Origin: a virus
Strand: one strand, 5' to 3'
Length of the DNA: 43,290 bases
Virus record (IMG/VR): IMGVR_UViG_3300036715_001927
Coordinates: 1 to 43,290 of that record
The notes beneath the pieces are model-generated. The model ran no database searches. It was not told the origin of the DNA and saw nothing but the letters and a program-made list of their open reading frames with translations. Within the stretch, counting starts at the first letter, position 1. The number at the start of each line of letters is the position of its first letter. Made by a program: the position numbers and the translations under genes. Below, piece by piece: positions 1 through 23,942 of this stretch.

Positions 1-991
1 TGCTGGAAGTGGAGCAACAAATGCTAGTGACTCAAATTTTATAGGTATCAATGCTGGTTTATATGCAACTGATGCTTTTAATTCAACATTTATAGGCAAT
101 AATGCTGGAAATTTTGCTCAACAAGCTTATTCATCAAATTTTATAGGTATCAATGCTGGAAACAATGCAACAAATGCATCATTTTCTAACTTTATTGGAT
201 ATAATTCTGGAAATGGTGGCACTAATGCTAATACAAACAACTTTTTAGGATATCAAACAGGATATATGGCTGTAAATGCAACTTTTTCTAACTTTATTGG
301 TTTTAATGCAGGTTATAGTGCAACAACCGCATCATATTCTAATTTTTTAGGACATGACGCTGGATTCAACGGATCAAATGCTTCACATTCTAACTTTATT
401 GGATATGTCGCTGGATATGGTGCAACAAATGCATTAAGATCTAATTTTATAGGTGTTAATGCTGGTATGACGGCTGCAAATGCTAATAATTCTAATTTCA
501 TAGGTAATAACGCTGGATCAATTTCAACTAATGCCGCATATTCTAACTTTATTGGTGAATCTGCTGGAAGTGGAGCAACAAATGCTAGTGACTCAAATTT
601 TATAGGTATCAATGCTGGTTTATATGCAACTGATGCTTTTAATTCAACATTTATAGGCAATAATGCTGGAAATTTTGCTCAACAAGCTAATTCATCAAAT
701 TTTATAGGTGTCAATGCTGGAAACAATGCAACAATTGCATCATTTTCTAACTTTATTGGATATAATTCTGGAAATGGTGGCACTAATGCTAAGGCAAGCA
801 ACTTTTTAGGATATCAAACAGGATATATGGCTGTAAATGCAACTTTTTCTAACTTTATTGGTTTTAATGCAGGTTATAGTGCAACAACCGCATCACATTC
901 TAATTTTTTAGGATATAACTCTGGATTCAACGGATCAAATGCTTCATATTCTAACTTTATTGGACATAGCGCTGGATATGGTGCAACAACC
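1..991 (+). repeat. 561-bp tandem duplication inside the fibre gene
   Basis: Bases 1 to about 430 recur with very few differences at 562 to about 991, an exact offset of 561 bp. This is eleven copies of the 51-bp (17-codon) unit, so the reading frame is kept. Smaller 51-bp units continue to about base 1150. It looks like a recent in-frame expansion by recombination between repeat units, which would lengthen the fibre. A repeat this long and this similar is also a place where an assembly could collapse or expand. Confidence 0.9.
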
Positions 992-17704: not shown

Positions 17705-18223
17705 CTATTTTAATGAAATCTTTAGTCCCATTTTCTGCATTTCTAATAACACCTCAGCATTACTCATAGCGTCGTCAATTGGCATGTGGGAGTGAATAGT
17801 TTTTCTTAAGTGCTTCCATTTTGCATGAGAATCTTTAACCATTCCACAATATAAATCACCAATTCTACGACTTGACCATCCAAATGGATTTTCACCATAA
17901 AATCTATGAAAATAATAATTTATAAAAGAAAAATCATATCCATTATTATCAGAAATGAAAATTGGTTTTCCAACAGATGTTTCTTTTATCCATTCTGCAA
18001 ATTCTTTCATTACTTGTTCTGGCTCATCAAACGTTAGATGATCCTCTCTTGAAAATCCGCTGATACTTAATGCGTCAGGTTTCCAGTTTTCTGATATTGG
18101 TTTAATTTTACCATAGAATGTTTTTGATAATGTTGGTTCAACTTTTACAACACCAAAACATATCATAGAATATAGTCCAGGTACAGGTCCATCTGATTCA
18201 CAATCAACAACGTATACACTCAT
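17705..18223 (-). CDS. DEDDh-type 3'-5' exonuclease (DnaQ/RNase T-like)
   Basis: 172 residues. Exo I is VYVVDCESDGPVPG (residues ~3-16, catalytic Asp and Glu). Exo II is ISDNNGYDFSFINYY (~residues 95-105, Asp). Exo III is HSHMPIDDAMSNAEVL (~145-160, His and Asp). These acidic residues bind two metal ions that hydrolyse 3' ends of single-stranded DNA or RNA. The single-domain length matches phage and bacterial exonuclease/RNase T relatives. Four bases separate it from the upstream macro-domain-like gene, so the two are co-transcribed. Whether it acts on DNA or RNA is not decided by the sequence. Confidence 0.8.
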   Translation of the reverse strand: MSVYVVDCESDGPVPGLYSMICFGVVKVEPTLSKTFYGKIKPISENWKPDALSISGFSREDHLTFDEPEQVMKEFAEWIKETSVGKPIFISDNNGYDFSFINYYFHRFYGENPFGWSSRRIGDLYCGMVKDSHAKWKHLRKTIHSHMPIDDAMSNAEVLLEMQKMGLKISLK

Positions 18224-22391: not shown

Positions 22392-22850
22392 TCATTTTAT
22401 CTTGATAAATTCATCATTCTTAATCGCTTTGTTGATATATCTCATTAAAGTGATAGAATTAGATGGATTGATTATTTCAACTCCAAGTTGTGTGAACTCT
22501 CTGTATCTTCCAGCCTGTGGCTTTTCTCCACGAAAACATTCAGCTACATAAAACAAAAAAACATCTTTTTTATTTCTAAAAGATGTTTTTGCTAATTTCT
22601 GAATAACCGCCGTATATTCTGGCGCTAAACATAAATCTCGTTCACCTCTATCTTTAAAATTGTACATCATGTTGTTGTTCTCAACACCAACCTTACCAGC
22701 AAATAAATCCTGATGTTGGATTATATGTATTTGAATTTCATTGAAGTTGCTATTTATTAGTACTTCAATCATGCTGTTTAGCATTTCTCTCTTCTCATTT
22801 CCAACCAAAATCCTGGTTCCTTTGTAACATGTTTCTTTAATCTCTTTCAT
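22392..22850 (-). CDS. Truncated histidyl-tRNA synthetase-like protein
   Basis: 152 residues covering only the front half of a class II HisRS catalytic core. Seen: HQDLFAGKVGVENNNMMYNF (residues ~46-65; HisRS 'tELF..kvGe.tdi..keMYtF'), RDLCLAPEYTAVIQKL (HisRS 'LtLRPEgTA') and motif 2 as FRGEKPQAGRYREFTQLGVE (~residues 110-130; HisRS 'FRhErPQkGRyRqFhQ.g.E'). Motif 3, the HisA-type histidine loop and the anticodon domain are missing. RPEGT is changed to APEYT. Full activation of histidine is therefore doubtful. The gene ends next to tRNA-Tyr and starts 18 bases after tRNA-His, so a role in binding, repairing or protecting tRNA-His is a reasonable guess. Confidence 0.75.
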   Translation of the reverse strand: MKEIKETCYKGTRILVGNEKREMLNSMIEVLINSNFNEIQIHIIQHQDLFAGKVGVENNNMMYNFKDRGERDLCLAPEYTAVIQKLAKTSFRNKKDVFLFYVAECFRGEKPQAGRYREFTQLGVEIINPSNSITLMRYINKAIKNDEFIKIK

Positions 22851-22868
22851 AACTTTTAATTTTGTTTG

Positions 22869-22942
22869 GGTGTAAGGTCGGTTTCGATCCGACTACCTCT
22901 TGAATCACAGTCAAGCACTCTCCCGATTGAGCTACAAACACC
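22869..22942 (-). tRNA. tRNA-His(GTG)
   Basis: Anticodon arm CTTGA CTGTGAT TCAAG gives GTG; T arm GTCGG ATCGAAA CCGAC is perfect. An extra G at position -1 can face C73, the identity pair of tRNA-His. The acceptor has two T-T mismatches (positions 5 and 6), which is unusual. Lies 18 bases before the HisRS-like gene. Confidence 0.8.
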
Positions 22943-22971
22943 ATATAAAATGCTCATTTTTAGAACATTAG

Positions 22972-23062
22972 CGGAAAATTCGGGGCTCGAACCCAAACAC
23001 CGATTTAACTCGATGAACAGTTTAGCAAACTGCGCCAATACCAATTATGGACTTAATTTTCC
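22972..23062 (-). tRNA. tRNA-Ser(GCT)
   Basis: 91 bases with a long variable arm as in type II tRNAs. Acceptor GGAAAAT / ATTTTCC is perfect; T arm ends in GGTTCGAGCCC; the loop TTGCTAA gives GCT. Confidence 0.85.
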
Positions 23063-23071
23063 AGTTTTTTG

Positions 23072-23148
23072 TGGGACGAATCGGAATCGAACCGATGCTA
23101 ACTACTCAGATCTTCAATCTGAAGCTCTGCCAACTGAGCTACCACCCC
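23072..23148 (-). tRNA. tRNA-Phe(GAA), first copy
   Basis: Anticodon arm TCAGA TTGAAGA TCTGA gives GAA; T arm ATCGG TTCGATT CCGAT is perfect; acceptor GGGGTGG pairs with TCGTCCC through G-T wobbles. Its 5' end lies 6 bases after the 3' end of the RNase P RNA. Confidence 0.8.
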
Positions 23149-23154
23149 TTATTT

Positions 23155-23355
23155 AATTTAAAAAATAATAACCACCTTTTTGTATCTCGTTTATCATTTG
23201 TCTAATCCCGTACCTTGTCCTATCTGCTCACCATAATAGACTTTTTTCGGTTTCATCCTTAACAGTTTTAGCGAATTATTAGTTCTCCTGTTTTAAGCAG
23301 TGATGAGGTGAGTTTCCTCTATGTCTTATCATAGCGATAAACTATTTTTTAAATT
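23155..23355 (-). ncRNA. rnpB: Compact RNase P RNA encoded by the phage
   Basis: About 201 bases. On the minus strand, in order: P1 AATTTAAAAAATA pairs with the 3' end TATTTTTTAAATT (13 bp). P2 GTTTATC pairs with GATAAAC (7 bp) directly inside. P3 hairpin is CTATG/CATAG. The universal GAGGAAAC follows, and its AAC-U-CACCT pairs with AGGTGGTT, giving P4 with the single bulged U that marks all RNase P RNAs. P5 TCAC pairs with GTGA. The stretches TTAAGGATGAAACCG, TAGACAAATGATAAAC and ACAAAA stand where bacterial RNase P has GGTAAGGGTGAAAG, TAGATGAATGACTGTC and ACAGAA. The specificity domain is strongly reduced. It is embedded in the tRNA array, 4 bases after one tRNA-Phe and 6 bases before another. 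Confidence 0.85.
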
Positions 23356-23359
23356 ATTG

Positions 23360-23432
23360 TGGAGACTATTGGTTACGATCCAATCTCTCATGCTCTTCAG
23401 GCATACGCTTTCACCAGATTAGCTTAGTCTCC
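23360..23432 (-). tRNA. tRNA-Phe(GAA), second diverged copy
   Basis: Acceptor GGAGACT / AGTCTCC and T arm ATTGG ATCGTAA CCAAT are perfect; the stem TATGC / GCATG encloses CTGAAGA, giving GAA. Sequence differs widely from the other tRNA-Phe, so it is not a recent duplicate. The atypical D arm (GCTAATCTGG...) leaves some doubt about charging identity. Confidence 0.7.
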
Positions 23433-23466
23433 TTATTTATAAATTGTTTATTTTCAACAATTTAAG

Positions 23467-23557
23467 CGGAAGTAGAGAGACTCGAACTCCCACGCCGTTT
23501 TTAGCGACCTACTGTTTTCAAGACAGCTGCCCTTAGACCAACTAGACTTATACTTCC
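23467..23557 (-). tRNA. tRNA-Ser(TGA)
   Basis: Type II tRNA with variable arm GTCGCT...GGCGT. Acceptor GGAAGTA / TACTTCC is perfect, anticodon arm CTGT CTTGAAA ACAG gives TGA, T arm GGGAG TTCGAGT CTC(T)C. Decodes UCA. Confidence 0.85.
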
Positions 23558-23596
23558 ATTATTTTAATTTTATATTCTACGCTTAGAATATTTTTG

Positions 23597-23677
23597 CAGA
23601 CCAGGTAGGATTTGAACCCACGAACCTTTCGGATTGATTTTGGAGATCAACTGCTTTGACCGCTTGCTTACTGATCT
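23597..23677 (-). tRNA. tRNA-Trp(CCA)
   Basis: Acceptor AGATCAG / CTGGTCT; anticodon arm TTGAT CTCCAAA ATCAA gives CCA; T arm GTGGG TTCAAAT CCTAC. The anticodon is CCA, not TCA, so it would not read the in-frame TGA codons seen elsewhere in the window. The variable region is longer than normal. Confidence 0.8.
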
Positions 23678-23685
23678 ATTTTTTG

Positions 23686-23759
23686 TGCGCCTGACAAGAT
23701 TCAAACTTGTGACTCCATCATTAAAAGTGATGTACTCTAGTCAACTGAGTTACAAGCGC
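23686..23759 (-). tRNA. tRNA-Lys(TTT)
   Basis: Acceptor GCGCTTG / CAGGCGC; anticodon arm CATCA CTTTTAA TGATG gives TTT; T arm ACAAG TTTGAAT CTTGT. Its acceptor equals that of tRNA-Lys(CTT) at 19473, suggesting common origin. Confidence 0.85.
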
Positions 23760-23781
23760 ATTATGTTTTAATTTTATTTTT

Positions 23782-23863
23782 GTTTCCCCACTGGGACTCG
23801 AACCCAGAATGATTTCTCCCCGCTTTAAAAGAGCGGTGCCTTACCAATTTTGCTATGAGGAAA
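23782..23863 (-). tRNA. tRNA with anticodon TTT (Lys-type), unusual acceptor
   Basis: Acceptor TTTCCTC / GGGGAAA (one G-T), anticodon arm CCGCT CTTTTAA AGCGG giving TTT, T arm CTGGG TTCGAGT CCCAG. It starts with U1-A72 and has a 9-10 base variable region, unlike the other tRNA-Lys. Charging identity is uncertain although the anticodon reads AAA. It is the first tRNA of the main cluster. Confidence 0.7.
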
Positions 23864-23875
23864 TATATTAAATGC

Positions 23876-23907
23876 AAAAAATCCGAACTTTTGATGGTTC
23901 GGATTTT
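23876..23907 (-). terminator. Hairpin terminator upstream of the tRNA cluster
   Basis: AAAATCCGAAC and GTTCGGATTTT pair perfectly around an 8-base loop, followed on the minus strand by T residues. It lies between the small ORF at 23943-24032 and the first tRNA; partial termination would set the ratio of leader to tRNA transcript. Confidence 0.65.
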
Positions 23908-23942
23908 CCTTTTTATAACTTAACTTTATTAATGATGTTTCA

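Follow-up and report, generated by a model that had tools for sequence, protein, structure and literature searches.

The window, which is the whole stretch of DNA analyzed here, is a 43,290-base IMG/VR virus record that carries genes for a large terminase, baseplate wedge, RtcB and primase. On its minus strand, an AU-rich interval (G+C 0.31) with the elements of a bacterial RNase P RNA lies between two tRNA-Phe genes, whose positions (Table 1) leave gaps of 2 nt and 5 nt to the two ends of helix P1. The neighbors of this RNA include RtcB, a HisRS-like protein of reduced length and a protein that weakly matches RNase T-like exonucleases.

The tRNA array (22868-23862, minus strand) contains two tRNA-Phe(GAA) and two tRNA-Lys(UUU) genes, and a hairpin followed by a T run was seen by eye directly before it at about 23870-23912. 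A tRNA-His gene (22868-22941) is located directly upstream, in transcription order, of the HisRS-like gene (22392-22850, minus strand), the product of which has 152 aa and is much shorter than its family of 308 positions. The exonuclease match (17705-18223, minus strand) scores 24.9 bits at a cut-off of 24, and trimming of tRNA 3′-ends is one possible role for this protein.

Table 1. Positions in the window of the miniature RNase P RNA, its elements and the adjoining tRNA genes. R2 is the covariance model described in the text.
Feature	Position	Strand	Remarks
Miniature RNase P RNA, P1 to P1, 203 nt	23154-23356	-	R2 match (window excluded from model) and elements located
tRNA-Phe, adjoining upstream in transcription order	23359-23432	-	
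tRNA-Phe, adjoining downstream in transcription order	23071-23148	-	
P1, 5′ strand	23343-23356	-	14 bp with 23154-23167, zero mismatches
P1, 3′ strand	23154-23167	-	Partner of 23343-23356
P2, 5′ strand	23336-23342	-	7 bp with 23189-23195; adjoins P1
P3 hairpin	23319-23334	-	
Region I, GAGGAAACUCACC	23307-23319	-	Contains P4 5′ strand 23307-23314 and bulged U
Reduced middle domain	23224-23300	-	P7-like helix, 23294-23300 with 23224-23230
AAGGUACGG	23208-23216	-	Resembles L15 loop
Region V, first part, UAGACAAAUGAUAAAC	23189-23204	-	Contains P2 3′ strand 23189-23195
Region V, second part	23170-23183	-	ACAAAA 23178-23183, then P4 3′ strand GGUGGUU 23170-23176

The catalytic core of an RNase P RNA is kept in this interval, namely P1-P4, regions I and V and the bulged U of P4, and the specificity domain is shrunken. 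The P3 hairpin is followed by GAGGAAAC (23312-23319, minus strand), and P4 is formed by AAC(U)CACC of region I and GGUGGUU of region V, with a single bulged U. Region V is complete and in order on the minus strand (UAGACAAAUGAUAAAC, ACAAAA, GGUGGUU). In the middle domain, the P7-like helix encloses two further helices, P11-like and P12-like, together with a motif resembling region III (23248-23260); the labels P7, P11 and P12 are assigned by analogy. P13-P18 and a full specificity domain are not present, and a length of about 203 nt leaves no room for them. The L15 loop, which AAGGUACGG resembles, binds the CCA of tRNA in E. coli, and the GGU of this stretch is, by eye, absent from the other phage RNAs in an alignment of eight. 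The folding energy of the interval is by itself only mildly unusual (z -2.42; 4 of 200 shuffles were as good).

Most of the architecture had been proposed in an earlier note made from the sequence alone. The 7-bp P2 stacked on P1, the P3 hairpin, GAGGAAAC, a P4 with a single bulged U and the block order of region V all held, as did the flanking by tRNA-Phe genes. P1 is present, and its length is corrected from 13 to 14 bp; the gaps to the tRNAs, given as 4 and 6 bases, are corrected to 2 and 5 nt. The claim of a cut-down specificity domain held in part, in that the domain is reduced and not gone: helices labeled P7, P11 and P12 and the region-III-like motif are found in it.

Rfam families for RNase P RNA gave no match in the window at the gathering score and none in the interval at E<=10, and a search of the window record with RF00010 likewise found no match. 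RF00010 is a model of 367 positions, much of the middle of which is missing in the window RNA. Because there is no match above its gathering score of 100 bits, the window RNA is filed here under RNase P RNA and not under RF00010. When RF00010 was run on the records of 48 terminase relatives, two matches with an identical score were obtained (G049 and G058; 59.1 bits, E 2.2e-18), both under the gathering score, and on the RNA of a relative the match extended over the full length of the model (E 1.6e-17). P1-P3 and the two conserved regions, I and V, align there, and a large part of the model's middle has no counterpart, even in L060. Rfam at E<=0.05 recognizes an RNase P family in five of 16 other loci with miniature RNAs, RF00010 in two and RF00373 in three. 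None of these matches reaches the gathering score, which is 84 for RF00373; the best RF00010 score is 62.5 bits, and the three loci for which RF00373 is the best family score 26.7-40.7 bits.

A covariance model, R2, was built from 28 phage RNAs with the window excluded, and its pairing scheme was drawn on L046. R2 matches the window at 23155-23356 on the minus strand with 126.3 bits (E 5.7e-33), and the next best place in the window reaches 8.1 bits. A caveat is that the 28 RNAs had been collected by a model, R1, whose eight sequences included the window. On cellular RNase P RNAs, R2 scores 22-29 bits, with 5 of 18 at E<1e-3, and on 55 miniature RNAs it scores 36-190 bits. By these scores, the phage RNAs are related to cellular RNase P RNAs, yet are a distinct compact kind.

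Conservation of the structure was assessed in eight phage RNAs, including that of the window, which were aligned with MAFFT by sequence only and on which a structure with the P4 pseudoknot was drawn by hand. Under this structure 92.5% of the cells are paired, and changes on both sides occur in 36 of 45 pairs, where shuffles gave 18.5 (sd 2.5) and slid controls 8-14. Such changes are found in all 12 pairs counted in P1, in six of seven in P2 and in six of eight in P4. The paired fraction is 90.4% for P1, 89.3% for P2, 91.7% and 79.2% for P3, 94.6% for the P7-like helix and 97.5% for the P11-like helix. P4, which is absent from the R2 model, is 98.1% paired over 60 sequences, five of them cellular, and 111 of its cells are changed on both sides, compared with 30 (sd 5.9) in shuffles; in two of five measures, namely the pairs with a double change and the pair types, P4 in these 60 sequences is not above shuffles. 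An alignment of 55 miniature RNAs comprises 53 viral sequences and two from MAG contigs, 194-357 nt long (median 231), and every one of the 55 has the bulged U of P4. The positions of GAGGAA, a stretch that is not part of the region-V search pattern, are kept in 53-55 of 54-55 of them. It should be noted that the 55- and 60-sequence sets were assembled largely by searching with region-V letters and with models of which region I is a part.

The RNA recurs in other large phages. The window terminase has 48 relatives among the IMG/VR loci, and a script descriptor and regex screen found the same architecture in six of them (L017, L033, L037, L040, L046 and L057). A descriptor match in L031 was judged to be chance, and the matches of the regex screen mostly lacked the other RNase P RNA elements. 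When R1 was run on 50 related records, nine, all terminase relatives, gave a strong match (133-224 bits), and the other 41, some of which are short fragments, gave nothing above 16 bits. Because only 9 of 50 related records have a strong match, the RNA gene is patchy even among relatives. No strong R1 match was found in RtcB relatives of 256 and 330 kb or in a terminase relative of 159 kb. For the RtcB relatives L001-L011, no tRNA and no Rfam match were found in the stretches examined, and RF00010 had no match in their 11 records.

Over the whole of IMG/VR, a first exact pattern had no match, and a region-V pattern found 71 stretches. At a threshold of 40 bits or more, with R1 run on all and R2 on some, 48 of the 63 region-V loci not yet counted were retained, and stricter patterns gave 11 new loci, all 11 of which passed. 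Together with the nine of 50 related records and the window, the tally is 69 IMG/VR contigs, several of which are near-duplicates, and counted contigs with RNAs longer than 280 nt (such as L136, L137, L142 and L150) may be of the host type. The loci dropped were L093, L096, L102, L103, L105, L107, L124, L126, L130, L131, L140, L151, L153, L154 and L158, of which L151, L124, L153 and L158 score 26-36 bits. The viral status of the contigs rests on IMG/VR. A PF03237 terminase is found in 9 of 45 IMG/VR records, in both of two named phages and in one of two MAGs.

Among named phages, the RNA was found by model in three of seven tested (LR756501, 207.9 bits; LR756502, 105.4; LR745206, 100.7) and by blastn in LR756503, and was not found in LR756504, LR756500, Sphingomonas phage PAU or Tenacibaculum phage PTm1. 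The blastn search of named phages with the window stretch gave 310 matches, at least 40 of which fall on tRNA genes by their coordinates, and the search with the L046 RNA gave only three weak matches. The named phages nearest to the window by terminase are LR756501 and LR756503 (735,411 bases; 51.9% identity), followed by genomes of 635, 642, 636 and 462 kb (36-42%), with LR745206, LR756502 and LR756504 at 37-42%. The LR accessions are taken here to be genomes of the huge-phage study in which five genomes larger than 634 kb form the Mahaphage clade, predicted to replicate in Bacteroidetes (PMC7162821). It is likely, as part of the best explanation given below, that the window virus infects bacteria and that its record is a piece of a phage genome akin to the huge phages of 635-735 kb; placement with Mahaphage-type genomes rests on terminase identities and not on a tree.

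A tRNA is located within 50 nt of 11 of 52 miniature RNAs, always on the same strand; one of these 11 is on a MAG contig and two are probably the same RNA. For the remaining 41, the nearest tRNA is more than 50 nt away or there is none in the locus. In the window and in L148, tRNAs flank the RNA on either side at a distance of no more than 15 nt. TAnnTTTG, which is a promoter motif of Bacteroidota, occurs within 60 nt upstream of 10 of 43 RNAs, where 2.1 are expected by shuffling (3.4% of random 60-mers contain it), and hairpins with T runs were seen by eye downstream of the L062 and L168 RNAs. By these signals, the miniature RNAs that do not adjoin tRNAs look like separate genes.

Some further features of the relatives' loci were noted. 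A tmRNA gene (RF00023, 97.4 bits) is present in L116 (1261-1644, minus strand), also in L157; that of L116 and the RNase P RNA are on the same strand, some 1.2 kb apart, together with tRNAs. ARAGORN called one to three tRNA-Pyl genes, its name for tRNAs with a CUA anticodon, in each of L016, L017, L033, L034, L037, L041, L046, L048, L049, L057 and L058, mostly a few kb downstream of the terminase. These may be amber suppressors or reflect a changed code in these phages, which is no more than a possibility.

A search of 71 distinct records for RnpA (PF00825), the protein component of RNase P in bacteria, gave hits in two, LR756502 (525189-525473; L162 1495-1800, plus strand; TIGR00188 52.5 bits, cut-off 38.35) and LR745206 (76444-76752; L179 1465-1812, plus strand; 49 bits). 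The two proteins are 52% identical over 93 aa. Because LR756502 and LR745206 also carry the RNA, a bacterial-type RNase P seems to be encoded in full, RNA and protein, by each of these phages. In LR756501 the RNA is present and RnpA was not detected, and in LR756504 and LR756500 neither was found. A search of IMG/VR by peptide patterns confirmed no relatives of the phage RnpA. RnpA was not found in the window record; the window phage might use the RnpA of its host, or its rnpA might lie outside the fragment.

Near the phage rnpA genes, an ORF three genes before that of LR756502 (L162 332-988, plus strand) weakly resembles the head of CCA-adding enzymes (E 0.002 and 0.006). Beside rnpA of the 635 kb phage LR745206 is an ORF that by eye resembles TonB-dependent receptors (L179 2511-3296, minus strand), and a ClpP-like ORF, also recognized by eye, is nearby (L179 176-916, minus strand).

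Cellular genomes were searched for RNAs of the same kind, which proved rare there. The compact pattern was found in 17 IMG/VR stretches vs. seven stretches in a collection of genomes of 84,980 species, and the models support two of these seven, both on MAG contigs: L174 (123.7 and 142.5 bits), on a 6.8 kb contig binned in a Planctomycetia MAG, and L175 (34.6 and 42.8 bits), on a bacterial MAG contig of 28.8 kb. Possibly the L174 contig is a phage contig. The L174 RNA (393-617, minus strand) lies among tRNAs. L173, from Erysipelotrichaceae, appears by eye to be a short bacterial RNase P RNA and scores only 11.9 bits, and the remaining four stretches look like chance. In a sample of 148 Bacteroidota genomes, the phylum of a Paraprevotella MAG, 147 have RF00010 over the cut-off, with spans of 307 to 582 nt and scores of 158 to 307 bits. 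In a tree, five cellular RNAs group near the long RNAs of L137, L142 and L151 and not among the miniature ones; because support is weak, the tree is used solely for this grouping. Host contamination as a general cause was considered and rejected.

The window interval encodes an RNase P RNA in a phage; its identity, the conservation of its structure, its placement in a tRNA array and its recurrence, with RnpA genes in two of the large phages, are shown. The best explanation of the whole is likely to be that it is a catalytic miniature RNase P RNA of bacterial type that matures phage tRNAs, of which transcription, catalysis, the RnpA partner and self-release are inferred. According to this model, the RNA would be transcribed together with the flanking tRNAs; cleavage by RNase P at the 5′-end of the next tRNA, a tRNA-Phe, would free the 3′-end of the RNA, and 3′-end processing of the preceding tRNA would free its 5′-end. 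The RNA would then bind RnpA, either that of the host or, in some relatives, one encoded by the phage, and the complex would remove the 5′-leaders from phage tRNAs during infection. This explanation is limited by the lack of an Rfam match for the window RNA, by the absence of expression or activity data, by the finding of RnpA in just 2 of 71 records and not in the window, and by the patchy occurrence of the gene. A bolder reading is that an RNase P proper to huge phages has evolved, consisting of a lineage of miniature catalytic RNAs, some with phage RnpA as a holoenzyme, and that in the window type the ribozyme is part of a tRNA operon and frees itself and the tRNAs independently of host RNase P; taken as one joint claim, this could as easily prove wrong as right.

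The most serious rival, although an unlikely one, is that the RNA is a decoy or modulator, a descendant of RNase P RNA that binds host RnpA or pre-tRNA without cleaving and thereby slows host tRNA maturation or redirects RNase P. The reduced domain and the GGU missing, by eye, in most relatives could mean that normal substrate binding has been lost, and RnpA is lacking in most of the records searched. However, conservation of the core letters and the bulged U extends over the whole set, two phages also bring RnpA, and the RNA is beside phage tRNAs in 11 of 52 cases; an enzyme is favored over a decoy because of the conserved core letters and the two RnpA genes. It is very unlikely that the RNA is active as RNase P RNA but acts chiefly on targets other than phage tRNAs, such as host or phage messages or other structured RNAs. 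This rival can draw on the 41 of 52 copies that do not adjoin a tRNA, on the tmRNA nearby in one relative and on the fact that bacterial RNase P has substrates besides tRNAs (PMC4919922), whereas the copy in the window is flanked by two tRNAs.

Less likely still is a decaying, functionless remnant of a captured host gene. The RNA is short, AU-rich and missed by Rfam, as such a remnant might be, but decay gives neither compensating pairs nor kept core letters in sequences so different. Chance resemblance, or membership of another RNA family, is all but excluded: the pattern was first picked out by eye and Rfam finds nothing on the window, but the window-excluded model gives E 5.7e-33 and even RF00010 matches the RNA of a relative along its entire length.

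The catalytic RNA preferred here accords with the earlier note in its identification as RNase P RNA, which is supported by the leave-window-out search, the covariation in P1-P4, the RF00010 match of a relative and the RnpA genes. Pairings kept by both-side changes in P1-P4 of related phages answer the covariation check that the note had suggested. The note had also proposed an Rfam search, the failure of which even at a relaxed threshold would count as refutation, and for the window this is literally what was observed. Its statement that no well-described phage system of this layout was known can be amended in that the RNA is not a one-off and recurs in other large phages; embedding next to tRNAs is true of the window and not of most relatives (11 of 52 within 50 nt). 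That tRNA processing would free the ends of the RNA, and that the phage would thus mature its own tRNAs when host RNase P is limiting, remain inferences.

Ribozymes present in nearly every cell are few, and RNase P RNA is among them. If the miniature RNAs are active, phages carry a core RNA-based step in making the parts of translation, and the RNAs form a natural series of stripped-down catalysts (194-357 nt) that may reveal what the catalyst needs. It would also become testable why large phages with tRNA arrays bring their own enzyme, two of them with its protein. The results point to a blind spot of annotation as well, since Rfam misses the window RNA and the record of a 735 kb phage carries its copy unannotated.

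No description of a phage-encoded RNase P RNA was found in the open-access literature searched, with most subscription papers and preprints outside its scope. The sections bearing on the subject in PMC6582537, PMC9569102, PMC8545117, PMC4919922 and PMC11143913 contain no phage-encoded RNase P RNA, those of PMC8172020 do not mention RNase P RNA in phages, and a word search of the main text of PMC7162821 found neither "RNase P" nor "ribonuclease P."

Among known systems, bacterial class A RNase P RNA (RF00010, rnpB) shares with the phage RNAs the P1-P4 core, the bulged U of P4, the order of regions I and V and related motifs in the middle, but the cellular RNAs span 307-582 nt in 147 of 148 Bacteroidota genomes, compared with 194-357 nt (median 231) in the 55 miniature RNAs, and the miniature RNAs are encoded by phages and score below the gathering score. 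Archaeal RNase P RNA (RF00373) is similarly compact and is the best family for 3 of 16 loci, but the phage scores are below 84, there is no match on the window, and the two phage protein subunits are bacterial RnpA. Type T of Pyrobaculum is a short archaeal RNase P RNA that lacks most of the specificity domain, whereas in the phage RNAs this domain is reduced but present. CPR bacteria have diverged RNase P RNAs that are missed at normal thresholds and lack helices, most of them without the CCA-binding motif (PMC8172020); they resemble the phage RNAs in missed detection, missing helices and the frequent lack of this motif, but are cellular. In phage T4, tRNAs are contained in multi-tRNA precursors cut by host RNase P (PMC11143913); these multi-tRNA transcripts likewise need RNase P, but there the host supplies the enzyme, whereas here the catalytic RNA is encoded by the phage.
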